Positions 3,581 through 13,132 of a stretch of DNA of 26,216 nt are shown here, piece by piece; position 1 is the stretch's first letter, and every line of letters starts with the position of its first letter. The notes under the pieces are model-generated. The model was not told the DNA's origin and searched no databases. It was given only the letters and a program-made list of their open reading frames with translations. The stretch covers positions 1 through 26,216 of IMG/VR virus record IMGVR_UViG_3300042888_000548; one strand, 5' to 3'. A program made the position numbers and the translations under genes. This DNA comes from a virus.

Positions 3581-4327
3581 TTATCGTGGAGCAAAATCTT
3601 GTTGGAGTTTAATGTTATCAAAAAACTCTTTCTTTGTACCCATGTCGTCTTTAAACGCACCTTTGAGTACTGTGGTTTGTGTAAGACTACTATGTGCCAT
3701 AATGCCGCGATTCTCACAGCACCCATGCACTGCCTGAACATAAACACCTACATCTTTGGCATCAGTTGCTTTCATAATTTCGCGGGCAATATCGTTGGCA
3801 AGTTCTTCTTGCAGGGTACCGCGGCGAGCGCACCACTGAGCAATACGAGTGTATTTAGAAAGTCCGATAAGTTTTTGTGCGGCAATAAGGCCAATATATG
3901 CTACACCGGATACAGGCTGATGATGATGACTGCACATACTACGAAGCTCACTGCGAACAACCAGCATGCCTTCATATCTGTCCTCACTATCATTTGGAAA
4001 CGCTGTTGCGTCTGGTGCCGGGTCATATCGGCCACTCATGATTTCGTTAAAGTACATCTTGGCCAATCTACGTGCTGTGCCTTGACTATTAGGATCGTTC
4101 TCGCGATCAATTAGCAAACGATCTAGCACTTGTTCAAATGCTGGTGTTGCTTCGTCAATTAATTTTTCTATATCACCTTCGTATAGGTAATCGCTGATGT
4201 TATCACCTGCCCAGAAACGTTTGCCCTCACGTTTCATCTTAAAACGAATATGATCGCCTAGATATGCTTCTTGGTATCCGCCATCGCCTGCCATTGCGTC
4301 CAGGCCTGTTTCTTTTTTATCTGTCAA
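3581..4327 (-). CDS. folE: GTP cyclohydrolase I
   Basis: 248 aa; converts GTP to 7,8-dihydroneopterin triphosphate, first step of both folate/biopterin and 7-deazaguanine synthesis. The catalytic core is clear: Cys132-S-H-His135 and Cys203 in V-H-G-C form the zinc site, then LIGLSKYTRIAQWCARR (153-169) and a C-terminal T-T-V-L-K-G-A-F-K block as in bacterial FolE. The N-terminus is longer than usual by roughly 30 residues. The best start is a TTG at 4327 with GGAG 8 nt upstream; the next ATG (4294) has a poor ribosome site. With the QueD-like and DpdA-like genes of the same operon it probably feeds DNA base modification rather than folate. Confidence 0.93.
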   Translation of the reverse strand: MTDKKETGLDAMAGDGGYQEAYLGDHIRFKMKREGKRFWAGDNISDYLYEGDIEKLIDEATPAFEQVLDRLLIDRENDPNSQGTARRLAKMYFNEIMSGRYDPAPDATAFPNDSEDRYEGMLVVRSELRSMCSHHHQPVSGVAYIGLIAAQKLIGLSKYTRIAQWCARRGTLQEELANDIAREIMKATDAKDVGVYVQAVHGCCENRGIMAHSSLTQTTVLKGAFKDDMGTKKEFFDNIKLQQDFAPR

Positions 4328-4369: not shown

Positions 4370-5467
4370 TTATTTTAACATCTCTAATAGTTTATTACAA
4401 CTAAAAAAGTTTTCTTTTAGTATATCTACCTGTTTATTTAGGCTAGGCATACGAGTTCTGTAATTTTCCATATGTTCTATAATTGTTTTACAGATGTCTG
4501 GACGATACACAGTATAGGCGTCAAACGATTCAGTCCATTTGCTAGGATATTTAAACGTGTCTATAGCCATTTCACTGTAGCTAAGTCTATCTGGTACCAT
4601 AGGAATTGCACCTACTATAGCACCTTCATACCAACTGATGCCTAGTGTTTCTTGTAGGTTAGCACTAAACACCATTTTAGCTTCACCTAGTAAATTATGG
4701 TATTCATTTTTTGTTAGTTGTTGATCTTGACAAACAACAAACTCATATTGAGGTAAGTGTTCTTTTAGATCGCGGAAGATTTCGACCTGCTTCTCAGGAG
4801 CAATACGATGCGGGAACAAGATAAGATCACGCTTGGGCATATTCTTGTACATGAGTAGAGTATCGGTCATATACTCCATGGGCCATCCTGTGCGAACAAC
4901 CTTGTCGGTGAATAAAGTATCATCAAATACAGTCTTGTACATACTTACTTTACGATCCGGATCAGGTTGAATCAAATTCTCGTAAAACATATGAATGTGA
5001 AAGTCTGTGGCAAAGTAGTTGTGATCAAAAGCGTGGTAGAAACTCTTCTCTGCATGACGTACCCAGGGCTTATCTCCAACAAGACGTCCTAAGAAGTCCT
5101 GTGGATCATAACTGCCAGCATGCCATAAGCCATGTGTAGTTACAGGAATACCCAACAACTCACTCATGTACTTTAAGTTTATGATACCAGGATGCCAAGC
5201 ATCAGTAAAGATAAAGTGATCGCCGGGATGAACGGCTCCGTTACAAAATAACCGGCCCATCTGCTCAACTTGACTAGACTTGTATATATTGGTGCCACCA
5301 AAATTAAGAAAAGCACCAGGAGTAGTGGCTGAAGGAATATCTTCAGGCCCAGATATAATTTGAACATTGTGTCCTGCCTTTTTAAGTAACGCAGGCACAT
5401 GAGTTTTCCACTGACCTGTGTAACGTGTCTCAACTGCTTCTAGATCAATAAGGAAAACTCGTGCCAT
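4370..5467 (-). CDS. GT-B fold glycosyltransferase
   Basis: 365 aa. The C-terminal half is a typical GT4-like nucleotide-sugar domain: LILFPHRIAPEKQ (215-227) starts the second Rossmann domain, and E273-x7-E281 (ETLGISWYE) is the E-x7-E signature of retaining GT-B enzymes. The N-terminal half, with F-T-D-A-W-H-P-G near 87-94, would bind the acceptor. A GAGG site precedes the ATG. It lies directly before folE in the DNA metabolism operon and not among tail genes, so glycosylation of a modified DNA base is a reasonable guess; glycosylation of a protein or host envelope cannot be excluded. Confidence 0.85.
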   Translation of the reverse strand: MARVFLIDLEAVETRYTGQWKTHVPALLKKAGHNVQIISGPEDIPSATTPGAFLNFGGTNIYKSSQVEQMGRLFCNGAVHPGDHFIFTDAWHPGIINLKYMSELLGIPVTTHGLWHAGSYDPQDFLGRLVGDKPWVRHAEKSFYHAFDHNYFATDFHIHMFYENLIQPDPDRKVSMYKTVFDDTLFTDKVVRTGWPMEYMTDTLLMYKNMPKRDLILFPHRIAPEKQVEIFRDLKEHLPQYEFVVCQDQQLTKNEYHNLLGEAKMVFSANLQETLGISWYEGAIVGAIPMVPDRLSYSEMAIDTFKYPSKWTESFDAYTVYRPDICKTIIEHMENYRTRMPSLNKQVDILKENFFSCNKLLEMLK

Positions 5468-7633: not shown

Positions 7634-9244
7634 TTATTCGGCTACAAGACTATTTAGGTCGTCATCATCTGGATTTGCAAAATCAATCTCTCCAGCTTTT
7701 TTACCATCATCAAACTCAAACAAACTGCCAAAAGTATTTGCGGCGGGCCCACCTTGTAGTCGAGCACCTTCTAATGATTTCAAGAATAGTCCAGCAGTCT
7801 CAATCATGTCAAATGCTTCTGCTTTAGTTTTAGTATTGAATAGTTCTTCAACGAATGTGCCAAAGTAAAGAATTTTGTTTGGAACCCAATCGCTGAATTC
7901 AATTTCTTTCTTACCTTCGATGCTCTTCATACGCCAGTCTGGTTTAAATCTAGCACATTCAATGTCCATTAACTGTTGAGCACGTTGTACAGCTTTAATA
8001 TGACATTCGACATTATGACCCATCATTAATGCATAACTGAAACTATCCCAACTGGTCTTATTTGGAATCTTGCCTAACTTGTTTAGTTTGGGCACAGTAT
8101 GATAGTGTTCTGGATTTAGATGATCGAATTTCTTACCCGCTAATTCTTCATCAGTCTTACGAACACCGTAATCGTAATAGGCAATATCACCCATGGTCAA
8201 TCGACTTGCAAACTCACTTTCAAAAGGAAACGGAATGTCGTGACGCCCAGCAAGTGCTTTATTATCCGGAGCCTTGTCCATGATCACTGACCAACGCTTG
8301 TTAGTATGTTGTGCATTTGTATACACAAGTCCGTGAGCAGTGGCAATGAACGGACTTGCACAGTCAAAACTGATAGTAAGTTCTGGATTGATATGTTTAC
8401 GTATTTGTCTTTGAATCTGTGTTAGATAGCATGACCAGTCTAGCTGTGCAGTACCCAAGAAGTGAATCCAGTTCTTGCCGTCTAGCATACCTTCGTCACG
8501 CATAGTCATTAGACGTTTGAGGGTGATATCCATCTTGCACATATTAGCACCACCAAATGCCCAACCTTCAGCTTCACGTCCTGCATACTTGCCTTTGGGG
8601 TCGCTAAACTCTTTAACGCCAGCATACCATTTCTCAGCAGTATCCCAGTCTCCGCCTTGCAGAACATTAAGCCATTTGGTTTGACCTAACCGATTCATTA
8701 AGAAGTAATCGTTATTGTAGCGAGTCTTTTCTAGACAGTCTTCGAATGTTTTCAATCCAGTCTTTGGACTGTGAATATGATCACATGCCCATGTTGGAAC
8801 GTCCAACATCATGGACCAGTCAGCTGTAAGTTCCAACCACTCAAGAATCTTTTGACGAGTCTTAGTAGCTTCTGGACCTTCAAAGTTCAACCAGTCAAAC
8901 TTAAGAACACCTTTACCAATCTGATATCCACCTGAATCACCTAAAATCATTGTATTAGGTCGATCACGGTCTTGTATCATTGATTCTTGAGTCATTGACT
9001 TTTCAAGATCTAACTGTGCGTGACCTGCTGAATACAGAGCATACTTGTAGGTAAAGTATCCTTGATCAGCATTTAAGAAGTTCATGCCTTCAATGCCACG
9101 ATCAAATCCCGCAGGAATTCGATCTTTAGAAACAAATTCTTCTAGTCGTTGTTTTGCAACATAAGTTGAATAGAAAGAACTGATAGCTGGCAAATACACA
9201 GCATAGTCTTTCTGTAAAGGTGTTAGGTCAATTGGTTGTTTCAT
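7634..9244 (-). CDS. dpdA: DpdA-like 7-deazaguanine DNA transglycosylase (TGT superfamily)
   Basis: 536 aa. Motifs of the tRNA-guanine transglycosylase barrel appear in order: D103-S-G-G-Y-Q (like D-S-G-G-F-Q), M-L-D148-V-P, V-L-Q-G-G (194-198), W-A-F-G-G-A-N (228-234), H-F-L-G-T-A-Q-L-D (261-269), and F-D294-C-A-S-P-F, equivalent to the F-D-C-V-x-P segment holding the nucleophilic Asp. DpdA enzymes exchange guanine in DNA for preQ0 or derivatives. A phage gene beside polymerase and clamp, and sharing an operon with folE and a queD-like gene, suits DpdA better than tRNA TGT; the TGT zinc motif is not evident. Residues 503-511 (NTFGSLFEF) resemble the polymerase's clamp-binding tail. Overlaps the previous gene by 17 nt. 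Confidence 0.8.
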   Translation of the reverse strand: MKQPIDLTPLQKDYAVYLPAISSFYSTYVAKQRLEEFVSKDRIPAGFDRGIEGMNFLNADQGYFTYKYALYSAGHAQLDLEKSMTQESMIQDRDRPNTMILGDSGGYQIGKGVLKFDWLNFEGPEATKTRQKILEWLELTADWSMMLDVPTWACDHIHSPKTGLKTFEDCLEKTRYNNDYFLMNRLGQTKWLNVLQGGDWDTAEKWYAGVKEFSDPKGKYAGREAEGWAFGGANMCKMDITLKRLMTMRDEGMLDGKNWIHFLGTAQLDWSCYLTQIQRQIRKHINPELTISFDCASPFIATAHGLVYTNAQHTNKRWSVIMDKAPDNKALAGRHDIPFPFESEFASRLTMGDIAYYDYGVRKTDEELAGKKFDHLNPEHYHTVPKLNKLGKIPNKTSWDSFSYALMMGHNVECHIKAVQRAQQLMDIECARFKPDWRMKSIEGKKEIEFSDWVPNKILYFGTFVEELFNTKTKAEAFDMIETAGLFLKSLEGARLQGGPAANTFGSLFEFDDGKKAGEIDFANPDDDDLNSLVAE

Positions 9245-9593
9245 ATTCTCTCGATAAAATTGCTGTAAGTTCTAATCTTGTTTTTGCCTGTTCTAGTTGT
9301 TCTAATGCGATACGAACTGCTTCATTAGATGAAGCAAGTTTGTACCAATCATTTTCTTCTTGGCGCTTTTTACGAGCCCATTGTATAATGTCTAGCACAT
9401 CTTGATCTAGGCTTACGGTAGCGTAACTGCTAGATATTGTTTGCCAATTTGATCCGTTAAACACTTCTAGTTCGGTGTTGTGGATACGCATCATCCCAGT
9501 CATTGGGTTGCTTGAGTTTGGACCGACATATGGTAGGGCGGTATTTCCGCCACCAACCGTAATGCCTGTTACGCCTTGTAAACCTTTGATCAT
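9228..9593 (-). CDS. Conserved phage protein, unknown function
   Basis: 121 aa. The first half is Gly/Ser/Asn-rich beta (T-G-I-T-V-G-G-G-N-T-A-L-P-Y-V-G, then MRIHNTELEVFNGSNWQTI), a style common in phage structural or tail-tip proteins. The second half is a long charged helix (DIIQWARKKRQEENDWYKLA and more) likely to form a coiled coil. Its place between clamp and DpdA-like gene does not look structural. No family recognised. Confidence 0.6.
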   Translation of the reverse strand: MIKGLQGVTGITVGGGNTALPYVGPNSSNPMTGMMRIHNTELEVFNGSNWQTISSSYATVSLDQDVLDIIQWARKKRQEENDWYKLASSNEAVRIALEQLEQAKTRLELTAILSREYETTN

Positions 9594-9595
9594 AT

Positions 9596-10333
9596 TTAGG
9601 CAGCTTGTGCTGGGATGATATATTTGTAAGTAGCAAGTCCGCTATCTAGAGTGATCTGAATAGCACCTTCATTGCTCAACGACATCTTAGTGGTGTTGGT
9701 ATCTGCAATCTTAAGTATGCTCAAGATTGGCAACACAGGCCAAGTCCAACCGCGATCTAGTTTGCCTGCAACATTCTGTGCAAACACAAACTCACCGCCG
9801 TGTGTCGATGCATCACCGAATGTAAATTTAAGATTGCCGCCTTCTGTCTTGGCAAGAAATGTTGGATGCTCTGAGTTAGCACCTGCTTGGAAGTTAAATC
9901 GGAGCACAGAAGTCACTGATGGCTCAATTTCAACATCCCACTTAACACCACGAAACTTCACAGTCTTCATCTTTTCATTGATGATTTCTTGATTCATAAA
10001 GCGATAGTCGTTTTTAAAGTCGCCGTCTTTGTTTTCAAAGTGTAGACCCACTGGCATAGTTTCACCGTTGCGTTCTGCTGTGGTAATACTGATCTTTGCC
10101 CCTTCTTTGTACTCTGCACCTTCCAAGAGATATTTCAACTTGTTCAGTTGCGGCATACCAAACACACCGATCATATCTGGGTATGGATTAGCAGTTTCTG
10201 CCTCCATGATAACTGAACGGTCATCGGCCATTGAGTTAACAGTTGTGCCTTTATCTGTGCCTGTTACCTTGACTGTGGTCAAGAAGCCTAGATTCTGCGT
10301 ATGGCTAACGATGTCTTGTAAAATATCTTTCAT
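9596..10333 (-). CDS. 45: Sliding clamp (gp45-like processivity factor)
   Basis: 245 aa. It lies directly after the polymerase gene. The sequence reads as a clamp: repeated beta strands, G-V-F-G-M-P-Q-L-N-K-L-K-Y-L-L-E-G in the middle of the first domain, and a C-terminal strand GLATYKYIIPAQA like the ends of gp45 and PCNA subunits. Length is close to T4 gp45 (228 aa), so it would work as a trimer encircling DNA. The polymerase ends in a peptide of the gp45-binding type, which supports the call. Identity to T4 gp45 looks low. AGGAG lies 8 nt before the ATG within GAGAATTCTC, a small palindrome. Confidence 0.75.
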   Translation of the reverse strand: MKDILQDIVSHTQNLGFLTTVKVTGTDKGTTVNSMADDRSVIMEAETANPYPDMIGVFGMPQLNKLKYLLEGAEYKEGAKISITTAERNGETMPVGLHFENKDGDFKNDYRFMNQEIINEKMKTVKFRGVKWDVEIEPSVTSVLRFNFQAGANSEHPTFLAKTEGGNLKFTFGDASTHGGEFVFAQNVAGKLDRGWTWPVLPILSILKIADTNTTKMSLSNEGAIQITLDSGLATYKYIIPAQAA

Positions 10334-10393: not shown

Positions 10394-13063
10394 TTACTCA
10401 AAATCAAACAATTTGTTAAATGTATTATCCGACCTTGTTGAACTGATGTCCCATTCCAATACACCAATAAGGTTTCCTAACTTTTCATCGATCACAGTGG
10501 TTTCCATTTCGGCATCGTTGAAAGGCAGATCCTTGAACCACTGCGGTAATCTCAGTTCGTCCACAGGATAGGCCACAGAAGTATACCCCATAGGATTGTC
10601 TTTGATCTTGCACACAATCACTTTCATGCCATCTACTACCTGCATTGAGTACTTGTCGTCCATCATTCGCTTCAAAGTGTTCCAATTTAATGAAGCTCTG
10701 ACATGTCCGGGCATGTTAGTCTTGCCTGCCTTCTTTTCTTTGGCAGCGTATTCTGTAATATTGTTAGCACGTTTGGGACTACCTTTCTCCCAACCCGGTC
10801 GAGTTTTAAACTCTGTGCGGAAATCGGTGATATATTGTAGGATCTCTTCTTTGGTCACGCCAGTTAGTGTCTTAGTCAACACTTCACTCAAGAAGTCTTG
10901 TATAACAACCGGGGTATCTGAACGCTTGAGATCAAGCCCCATCGCTTTAATTTTTCCTGGTTTGCCTTCTGTGTCTGCTCGTTTACCTTCTTTGTCGTAG
11001 TAGAGCACTGCGTATCGCTTTTTGGTAATGAACAGTCCTTTGCTTGCAACAATTTCGCGACCTGCTTTGATGACCTCGGCTCTAGCTCGGGGGACGTGGA
11101 ATGCATCTTGCATGAATTTGACAAATGTGCCATTGACTGTATCTCCTATGGTATCATAAAGTTCAACAACTGATTCTCTGTTCCAAGGAATCAGGCCTTT
11201 CTCAATGTCTTTTTTCAGTGTAGCATACGCTGAAAAATAACAAGAGTCTGTGTCACCGTATATGACCGCTTTGCCTACGTGGTCATACTCTCCGGTGATA
11301 ATTTCGTTAACTTTTGATGCCATGTGTTTGGCAATTTGTCGACCAGTTAGTGTAGTTGACTGACCAATTCTGTTATCAAAGAATCTACAGCCCGGATTTA
11401 AAATCGCACCATATAGACTGTTTAACAGAATCTTCTTGACCAACTGTCGCTTGTCCCAGTATTCTTCTTCAATCTTGTTGCCAGCTTGGATACATTCTCT
11501 CAGCTTAGCCTGCATTTCCTTACGTTCTTTGTACCAACGAGCCAGCAGTCCTGAAATCACGCCTTCGGTTTCATATGTGAATATAGTACCATTAGCTGAT
11601 ATCATCCAAGGTTGGTTGCTGTCAAATATAAGATCGTAGGCCTGAGCCGCACTCAGCGTATCCGACCCGCCACCTTCCCAATCGATATTGATTTCACGTC
11701 CCACTTCTTTGTTCATCACAGCAGAATATTCAAGACTACCGAATATACCTTCCCAGGCAGACGCAAATGATTTTCCTTTAGACATTTCAGCTGCAATATA
11801 GTCCTTGGTTCCATCCTGTCGCAACTGACCGACGATGGTTTCAGGGCCCATATTCAACGCTCGAATAGCACTAGGATAGAGACTATTAATGTCAAGAGAG
11901 CCAATCCACTCATGTATACCTTTCTTTGGATATGCAACGTAAGCACCAGCAGCTTGTGTGTCTCCGTGCTCTTCCATCTTTTTGCGATTAGGAACTATCA
12001 TACCTCTGCGGTGAGCTTCGTTAATAATAGCTTGTTCAGTTACTGCCACTGCTCCCATAGTGGTTGCCACTAACACTGTGTTTTCGTGTGCAATGGTATT
12101 AGCTAAGTCGATAAATTTTAATTTTCTATCAAGTTTTTCAAGAAGCATGCAGTCATTGATGTTGTATTCGATGAATGTTTTAAAATCATTGTTGTACAAT
12201 TGATCCAACGTGCCTTCATACTGTGTTTTGCGCTCGCCTAATTCATATTCAGCAATAGCATCTAATCGATAAGTGTGACGTTCTTCGTATGTGTACTTGC
12301 GATATAATTCTAGACTATCGATATGAACACGACCAATGAAGTCATAGGTGGTAGCAGTTTTACCAAACTTTTCGTATTCACGTTTCTTAGGTAAACAGTT
12401 CCATAGACAAAATCGTTTGGTATCTTCTTTGCTGAGAACTTTAGTAACTCGATTAACAGTATATGGAATATCAAAGCCCTCTGAATTCCAACCACTTAAT
12501 ACATCCGACTCTTGTATTAGATCCAAGAAAGTATTCAACATGTCTGCTTCGTTGTCAAACAGCATAGTGTTAGGAAATTCTGCGACTGCTTTAGTTGCTT
12601 CTTCCATGCTCAGTGTCTTGGGAGGAATCGCCAAACACACCATGGTCTGCATCCATTGTAGGTAAACAGCAATTGCAGTGATGGGCATAAATGGATCATC
12701 AGGTGATGCATATCCACGTTCCGGATCAAAGTCTACCTCGATGTCGAAAAATGCTACATTCAGTTTAGGAGCATCTTGATTAAGATAGTGATCTTCTAGA
12801 CATCGATAGATAGGATTAATATCTGACTCGTAGAGCCGTTTGTTTGAATGTATGGCAAGTTCTTTGCGATGCTCTTTGACATTCTTAGAACTAACTCTAC
12901 TTAAGGGTTCGCCCTTGATGGATTGGAACTTGCCTTTGGGGTCGTTGTAATAGAATATATGTCTGGCAGGATAATCTTTGAAATGCCTCTGCCCTTTGTC
13001 GTCACGCTCAACGACACGTATAATGTCATTGTCGCGATCGTAGTATGCGTCCACGAAACTCAT
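10394..13063 (-). CDS. 43: Family B DNA polymerase (gp43-like)
   Basis: 889 aa, close to T4 gp43 (898 aa). The 3'-5' exonuclease motifs are present: FDIEV (106-110), SGWNSEGFDIP (190-200), YNIND (300-304). Polymerase motifs follow: A, DINSLYPS (391-398); B, KILLNSLYG (544-552); C, YGDTDS (602-607), with all catalytic Asp residues. The last residues, NTFNKLFDF-E (880-889), are like the C-terminal clamp-binding peptide of T4/RB69 gp43. I chose the ATG at 13063 because AGGAG is 5 nt upstream and a gp43-type hairpin precedes it; an upstream in-frame ATG at 13093 would lie inside that hairpin region. It replicates the phage genome. Confidence 0.96.
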   Translation of the reverse strand: MSFVDAYYDRDNDIIRVVERDDKGQRHFKDYPARHIFYYNDPKGKFQSIKGEPLSRVSSKNVKEHRKELAIHSNKRLYESDINPIYRCLEDHYLNQDAPKLNVAFFDIEVDFDPERGYASPDDPFMPITAIAVYLQWMQTMVCLAIPPKTLSMEEATKAVAEFPNTMLFDNEADMLNTFLDLIQESDVLSGWNSEGFDIPYTVNRVTKVLSKEDTKRFCLWNCLPKKREYEKFGKTATTYDFIGRVHIDSLELYRKYTYEERHTYRLDAIAEYELGERKTQYEGTLDQLYNNDFKTFIEYNINDCMLLEKLDRKLKFIDLANTIAHENTVLVATTMGAVAVTEQAIINEAHRRGMIVPNRKKMEEHGDTQAAGAYVAYPKKGIHEWIGSLDINSLYPSAIRALNMGPETIVGQLRQDGTKDYIAAEMSKGKSFASAWEGIFGSLEYSAVMNKEVGREINIDWEGGGSDTLSAAQAYDLIFDSNQPWMISANGTIFTYETEGVISGLLARWYKERKEMQAKLRECIQAGNKIEEEYWDKRQLVKKILLNSLYGAILNPGCRFFDNRIGQSTTLTGRQIAKHMASKVNEIITGEYDHVGKAVIYGDTDSCYFSAYATLKKDIEKGLIPWNRESVVELYDTIGDTVNGTFVKFMQDAFHVPRARAEVIKAGREIVASKGLFITKKRYAVLYYDKEGKRADTEGKPGKIKAMGLDLKRSDTPVVIQDFLSEVLTKTLTGVTKEEILQYITDFRTEFKTRPGWEKGSPKRANNITEYAAKEKKAGKTNMPGHVRASLNWNTLKRMMDDKYSMQVVDGMKVIVCKIKDNPMGYTSVAYPVDELRLPQWFKDLPFNDAEMETTVIDEKLGNLIGVLEWDISSTRSDNTFNKLFDFE

Positions 13064-13068
13064 TTGTT

Positions 13069-13092
13069 CTCCTATGCAATTTACGGCTTGCA
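13069..13092 (-). promoter_or_regulatory. Putative translational operator hairpin of the DNA polymerase gene
   Basis: In the mRNA, UGCAA (13092-13088) pairs with UUGCA (13079-13075) to make a 5-bp stem closing an 8-nt loop GCCGUAAA, followed after one base by the AGGAG ribosome site (13073-13069) and AUG at 13063. A 5-bp stem with an 8-nt loop directly before the Shine-Dalgarno is the architecture of the T4 gp43 operator, where the polymerase represses its own translation. Loop sequence differs from T4. Confidence 0.6.
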
Positions 13093-13132
13093 AATACCAA
13101 TGTGCGGTTTATGGCCACGCCTGCCATCTATA

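Follow-up and report, generated by a model that had tools for sequence, protein, structure and literature searches.

The stretch of viral DNA analysed here (the window) comprises 26,216 nt, positions 1 to 26,216 of IMG/VR record IMGVR_UViG_3300042888_000548, and its features of interest are collected in Table 1. The genes follow one another in the order polymerase, clamp, 121-aa ORF and DpdA-like gene, with the gene for GTP cyclohydrolase I (FolE) farther along within the window itself. Near the DpdA-like gene we also see a glycosyltransferase-like gene whose counterpart, judged by eye, adjoins dpdA in Pseudomonas phage PA5oct (gp167, with weak glycosyltransferase matches). A clamp peptide is not seen at either end of the window's glycosyltransferase-like protein, which could be a further modifier of the inserted base.

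Table 1. Positions, strands and supporting evidence for the features discussed; the last row lists proteins of four genomes that share a peptide-like stretch.
Feature	Position	Strand	Basis
GTP cyclohydrolase I (FolE), enzyme 1 of 7-deazaguanine synthesis	3581..4327	-	family match
Glycosyltransferase-like protein, neighbour	4370..5467	-	by-eye likeness to PA5oct gp167
DpdA-like protein, 536 aa, TGT fold	7634..9244	-	ORF and fold match, TGT Z 18.1, model residues 10-460
Conserved tail island 2 of DpdA-like protein, D526 D527 x x L530 x x L533	7646..7669	-	homologue entropies
Putative clamp-interacting peptide NTFGSLFEF, DpdA-like residues 503-511	7712..7738	-	sequence, conservation, model
121-aa ORF between clamp gene and DpdA-like gene	9228..9593	-	without family match
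Sliding clamp, 245 aa, PCNA-type fold	9596..10333	-	predicted structure
Family B DNA polymerase, T4/RB69-like	10394..13093	-	family matches
Polymerase C-terminal putative clamp-interacting peptide NTFNKLFDFE	10397..10426	-	sequence
FG[STNE]LFE[IV] proteins	G001 111044-114475; G002 110774-114196; W02 209364-212960; W03 290902-291561

By sequence, the DpdA-like protein has no family match in PHROGs, Pfam, NCBIfam or PADLOC, PDB sequence searches with this protein, its profile and the clamp return no match, and hhalign against the DpdA of phage 9g gives no usable probability. Its predicted structure (mean pLDDT 75, pTM 0.80) has the (beta/alpha)8 barrel fold of TGT: the top four Foldseek rows are TGT, and VIA-align places 298 residues of the model, in the range 10-460, on TGT 2pwv (Z 18.1, rmsd 4.6). 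Residues D103 and D294 are invariant in 59 sequences and are candidates for the catalytic aspartate pair of TGT. DpdA2 of Vibrio phage nt-1 likewise has no PF01702 match, and the DNA of that phage contains dPreQ0 (PMC6884629). This protein resembles ours in a weak local similarity over one conserved region (hhalign probability 4%) and in having a T4-like polymerase in its phage, but no clamp peptide is seen in its tail, from which the F-x-x-L-F form is absent.

The clamp model (mean pLDDT 91) matches PCNA with a Z of 18.5 over 225 residues (Foldseek E 1e-11). Its sequence has one match only, to an unnamed PHROG; for its Vibrio phage 2.275.O homologue the PHROG match is to the processivity factor (E 7e-5), and hhalign of the window clamp with T4 gp45 gives a probability of 0.2%. 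The polymerase is RB69-like. Across six related records, FolE and QueE-like genes are found in all six and QueD in five, with QueC clear only in Vibrio 2.275.O and weak in two. PA5oct, listed earlier with a deazaguanine synthesis/incorporation system (PMC7824862), has FolE, two QueD and a QueE-like gene; a search with PF06508 finds no QueC there, so that a base other than preQ0 may be the one inserted.

The tail peptide and its conservation

The earlier note had proposed that the DpdA-like enzyme carries a copy of the peptide with which the polymerase ends, and both strings are where it placed them, NTFGSLFEF at residues 503-511 of the minus-strand ORF 7634-9244 and NTFNKLFDFE at the end of the polymerase ORF. 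Two details need amending: the interval it gave for the peptide, 7634-7737, spans peptide and tail together (the peptide itself is 7712-7738), and the identity of the two nonamers, put at seven of nine, is six of nine by our count (N, T, F, L, F and F). The Glu-for-Asp position that it described does hold, and G/N and S/K make up the other two mismatches. Both strings have the spacing found in RB69, F-x-x-[LM]-F-acid-F, where gp43 ends SLFDMFDF (T4 gp43 ends SLDFLFG); the hydrophobic-aromatic pattern of RB69 gp43, F-x-x-M-F-D-F, thus reads F-x-x-L-F-E-F in the DpdA-like protein. The RB69 gp43 C-terminal peptide has been co-crystallised with gp45 (PMC3012046, PMC2988020) and the T4 gp43 peptide has been seen bound to its clamp (PMC12746103). 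The T4 gp43, gp55 and gp33 clamp motifs are interchangeable, the gp55 motif works internally in a fusion (PMC2988020), and T4 RNase H has an N-terminal clamp motif (PMC3012046). Unlike the C-terminal peptides of gp43, gp55 and gp33, the one considered here is on a putative base-exchange enzyme and lies 25 residues before the end. As had been noted, it comes after the barrel, the TGT fold match stopping near residue 463, and it lies outside the modelled core rather than buried in it: the segment that bears it (495-516) has pLDDT under 50 and is predicted to be a flexible terminal segment.

How readily does such a string arise by chance? For each genome we counted proteins with the motif F..[LM]F[DEGSTA][FWYVIL] within the last 50 residues and compared the count with shuffling, which leads us to expect 0.3-0.4 proteins of about 300-420 per genome (1.2 of 607 for Sinorhizobium phage Phosso). 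Since 1 to 4 are seen per genome, the likeness of polymerase and DpdA in one genome, taken singly, is only suggestive. The motif is present in both proteins in three genomes, in the polymerase alone of the pair in Phosso, and in neither in Vibrio 2.275.O. When each genome's predicted proteins (taken from greedy ORF sets rather than from annotation) are ranked as matches to the C-terminus of their own polymerase, the DpdA peptide is the best match in three of five genomes (first of 373, 448 and 557), with DpdA 41st of 494 in PA5oct and 122nd of 762 in Phosso. A stretch of the form FG[STNE]LFE[IV], 30-54 residues before the end, is common to proteins of four genomes (Table 1) and is either a decoy or another docking site. 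Because other proteins of these genomes hold so similar a stretch, we rejected the peptide string alone as proof of clamp binding.

We therefore turn to homologues, assembled from viral contigs as 141 loci (the best 80 of 587 matches plus 61 new ones among the best 80 of 596) that are 68-100% identical to the window protein, with many near duplicates. Complete tails number 138, the 3' ends of L060, L194 and L202 being cut. Whether homologues lack the peptide, a point on which the earlier note had let its proposal stand or fall, is answered in its favour among the loci listed: the core [FY]..[LIF][FYM] is in 120 of the 138 complete tails, with exact F..LF in 108, and 15 of the remaining 18 still have L-F (three lack any L-F). 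Counted over unique tails of the loci listed, the core is in 79 of 94, against a shuffled mean of 1.4 and a maximum of 8 in 1000 rounds. One of the six patterns in the first homologue search lies partly in the peptide, a source of bias; the second search used barrel patterns only, and 45 of 59 new complete tails among its listed matches hold the core.

Position by position, 59 diverse sequences keep F505, L508 and F509 (entropies of 1.3, 0.7 and 0.8 bits) along with N503 (0.9 bits) and an acidic residue at 512 (1.2 bits), and vary at 504, 506, 507, 510 and 511 (2.2-2.8 bits). The island D526 D527 x x L530 x x L533 is conserved even better than the peptide (0.1-0.8 bits), and therefore the tail has another role too; by eye, the D-D-x-x-L-x-x-L island is also in PA5oct (INDEKLTELEQ). 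Among the loci listed, the polymerase C-terminus shows the pattern in 127 of the 129 with a complete 3' end (the two without it, L197 and L222, may be interrupted genes with an N-terminal piece as best match), and a clamp ORF lies on the same strand at most 1.3 kb from dpdA in 136 of 141. The two peptides also appear to vary together. Our covariation test covers only 74 distinct pairs with the core in both proteins, so defined that PA5oct, Vibrio 2.275.O and variant tails fall outside it; F..LF is altered in only two of these polymerases (L230 has F for L, L231 has Y for F), and both times the DpdA of that phage shows the same change (permutation p 0.0018, phylogeny ignored). The two departures may be non-independent, as the tails look related.

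Distant relatives and the 9g-type enzymes

Farther away, the DpdA of PA5oct is about 43% identical to the window protein and that of Vibrio 2.275.O about 31%. PA5oct has the order polymerase, clamp, small ORF, DpdA; its polymerase ends HFDSLFGW and its DpdA has NSFNSLFDV, and its polymerase gene is in two parts, separated by a putative homing endonuclease gene (L082 5605-10831). In Vibrio 2.275.O the corresponding strings, NNTDLFDW in the polymerase and NNNDLFGW in the DpdA-like protein, both reach the last residue. The Phosso polymerase ends TFNDLFTF and its DpdA KIVEGLF, so that we rejected the F-x-x-L-F form for the latter; two relatives of Phosso DpdA end TIIGGIFS. The Phosso DpdA gene is away from the clamp gene, and because the protein still ends LF it blurs the use of distance from the clamp as a control. 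Viral contigs, when searched, gave no match to the PA5oct or the Vibrio 2.275.O proteins.

Peptides of the same kind are also seen on other proteins of these phages. An annotated glycosyltransferase of Phosso (L169 9663-10532; Phosso 223052-223924), weakly matching beta-glucosyl-HMC-alpha-glucosyltransferase (E 0.012), ends LSDLFDFG, like the clamp peptide of the polymerase. A Phosso protein of no named function, encoded between the FolE and QueE genes (L165 17598-18098; Phosso 153391-153894), ends LNDLFDFG and resembles the Phosso polymerase peptide more closely than any other protein of that genome does. In Vibrio 2.275.O, the gene next after the DpdA-like gene encodes an amidoligase-like protein (L124 2251-3360; 332034-333146; Pfam score just under the cut-off) that begins MFNELFDF.

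The DpdA of phage 9g offers a comparison from a different replication system. Like the window protein, the DpdA enzymes of 9g and Seurat are TGT-related, go with preQ0 genes, have clamp and polymerase genes adjacent and bear a C-terminal LF motif; they differ in belonging to another subfamily, in the other family of their polymerase, in the bacterial-type beta clamp and in the shorter motif. We examined nine annotated records whose DpdA is in the 9g family or close to it. Six of these (9g, Seurat, MMDA13, R31B, Ssp-JY38 and RHEph06) have DpdA beside clamp and polymerase, separated from the clamp by at most two small ORFs, and show the LF end. In the other three, Bipper, Arbiter and Mufasa8, the 4.4-6.7 kb examined include no gene annotated as a clamp, and the LF end is absent. 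Likewise, nt-1 DpdA2 has no such LF end; none of the genes in the 25 kb around it is annotated as a clamp, and its own gene is about 20 kb from that of the polymerase.

In viral contigs we collected 83 loci of the 9g type, of which 80 have complete ends (L282, L314 and L345 were left out; the end of L265 is not readable). A clamp ORF is present in 77 of the 83, at a median gap of 3 nt. Of 60 unique ends, 54 have LF among their five final residues, against 1.9 by shuffling; when the ends are right-justified, no other position of the last 45 is as conserved as -2 and -1 (0.5 and 0.9 bits, the rest ranging over 1.6-3.6). The most frequent form is QELF (27 of the 60), and Q-x-L-F accounts for 41. 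The bacterial beta-clamp consensus is QL[S/D]LF, and E. coli DNA polymerase II ends QLGLF (PMC3716654); like that enzyme, the 9g-type DpdA would have its beta-clamp motif at the extreme C-terminus, but polymerase II is a polymerase and its Q-L-x-L-F motif is fuller. The full five-letter consensus does not occur in the listed 9g-type ends; they are predicted from sequence to be a shorter, degenerate beta-clamp-like motif, and because of that degeneracy the assignment is a prediction only.

Proposed clamp docking and its alternatives

The earlier note knew of no description of such docking, and for the DpdA peptide our literature search, which covered titles and abstract openings with subscription papers mostly outside its scope, likewise found no account. 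In its wider sense the claim has to be qualified: a clamp-bound phage modification enzyme is already known, since T4 alpha-glucosyltransferase binds gp45 (PMC13216743, PMC6024577; the pull-down is in PMC13216743, with Sommer 2004 cited there). That enzyme is like the DpdA-like protein in being a phage DNA-modifying enzyme in contact with the phage clamp (a predicted contact for DpdA), and unlike it in enzyme and base. Residues 211-217 of T4 alpha-glucosyltransferase (L248 3625-4827, minus strand) read FYQMFDF, an internal string spaced like the clamp peptide of RB69 gp43; the main text of PMC13216743 uses neither the word peptide nor clamp-binding. What appears new is that DpdA carries such a peptide and that the peptide matches the type of clamp.

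Docking of the DpdA-like protein to the phage clamp is a prediction for which sequence, predicted structure, conservation, covariation and the independent parallel in 9g-type enzymes give good support. Observed are the folds (as models), the peptide, its conservation and covariation, and the gene neighbourhood; from these we infer binding, base exchange and its timing, and we consider it probable that the enzyme docks by its tail and exchanges guanines on just-made DNA. The DpdA-like enzyme would be a DNA base exchanger with a TGT fold and a flexible C-terminal tail, whose peptide, of the polymerase's own clamp-interacting kind (F-x-x-L-F-acid-aromatic), would bind to the PCNA-type clamp at its hydrophobic pocket. 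On the clamp trimer the enzyme would either compete with the polymerase or take turns with it. Because the tail would tether the base exchanger to the clamp, guanines would most likely be exchanged for a 7-deazaguanine on the freshly made duplex that the polymerase leaves behind it; the phage would then modify its DNA while copying it. The 9g-type DpdA would act in the same way through a beta-clamp motif at its very C-terminus.

A different purpose for the same contact deserves consideration. Clamp binding may be real and serve local concentration, late or packaged DNA, or catalytic stimulation instead of modification at the fork: T4 clamps also serve late transcription (PMC2988020), and the extent of T4 alpha-glucosyltransferase modification is put down mostly to expression, clamp contact not being its main determinant (PMC13216743). 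The polymerase-clamp-DpdA gene order in both DpdA types points instead to the replication stage, and we regard these other purposes as unlikely, if worth keeping in view. We give much less credence to the idea that the tail motif is kept for a contact within the enzyme (a dimer or an active-site lid) or with another replisome protein, its likeness to the polymerase being convergent. The island D526-L533 does speak for a tail with more than one role, but neither an intra-enzyme contact nor another partner sits well with the same-phage covariation with the polymerase or with the matched, very C-terminal forms in Vibrio 2.275.O, and the low model confidence argues against a folded contact.

It is also improbable, to much the degree of a poor guess, that the enzyme is not a DNA modifier at all (acting on tRNA, for example), in which case a clamp contact would have another meaning; the lack of a Pfam, NCBIfam, PHROG or PADLOC match by sequence leaves room for this, and against it stand the polymerase, clamp and deazaguanine genes nearby and the listing of PA5oct with a deazaguanine synthesis/incorporation system (PMC7824862). 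We hold it to be hardly credible that the string is due to chance, or to common descent alone with close kin retaining it. The close identity and near duplication of the 141 listed loci, and the search pattern that contained part of the peptide, would favour it, but most neighbouring tail positions vary widely around the conserved F505, L508 and F509, the barrel-only search recovers the core in most of its new listed tails, and relatives as distant as PA5oct and Vibrio 2.275.O have strings of the same kind.

Although tail docking is the preferred explanation, the literature shows that not all DpdA enzymes need to dock on a clamp. In E. coli, where the host beta clamp could serve it, the 9g DpdA together with Gat-QueC brought plasmids to at most about 18% modified G (PMC6884629). 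Mycobacterium phage Rosebush has about 28% of its G modified (PMC6884629); it belongs to the genus of Arbiter, and the Arbiter DpdA lacks the LF motif. For 9g itself and for CAjan, which is in Seurat's genus, DNA modification has been measured by mass spectrometry, and the coliphage CAjan, grown on laboratory E. coli, loses its dPreQ0 when dpdA is deleted (PMC6884629).

We lean, with modest confidence, towards clamp docking as a general design of phage DNA hypermodification, with the clamp as a tool belt: at least two DpdA subfamilies have peptides matched to their own clamp (F-x-x-L-F-D-F with the PCNA type; Q-E-L-F and the like with the beta type), and there are other possible modifiers in related jumbo phages (Phosso LSDLFDFG, Vibrio 2.275.O MFNELFDF). 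The proposal bears on how phage DNA-modifying enzymes match the pace of replication and pick phage over host DNA. If docking of this kind is true, a type-matched clamp peptide would couple base exchange by DpdA to the phage's own replisome, and would explain why dpdA and clamp genes are so frequently adjacent.
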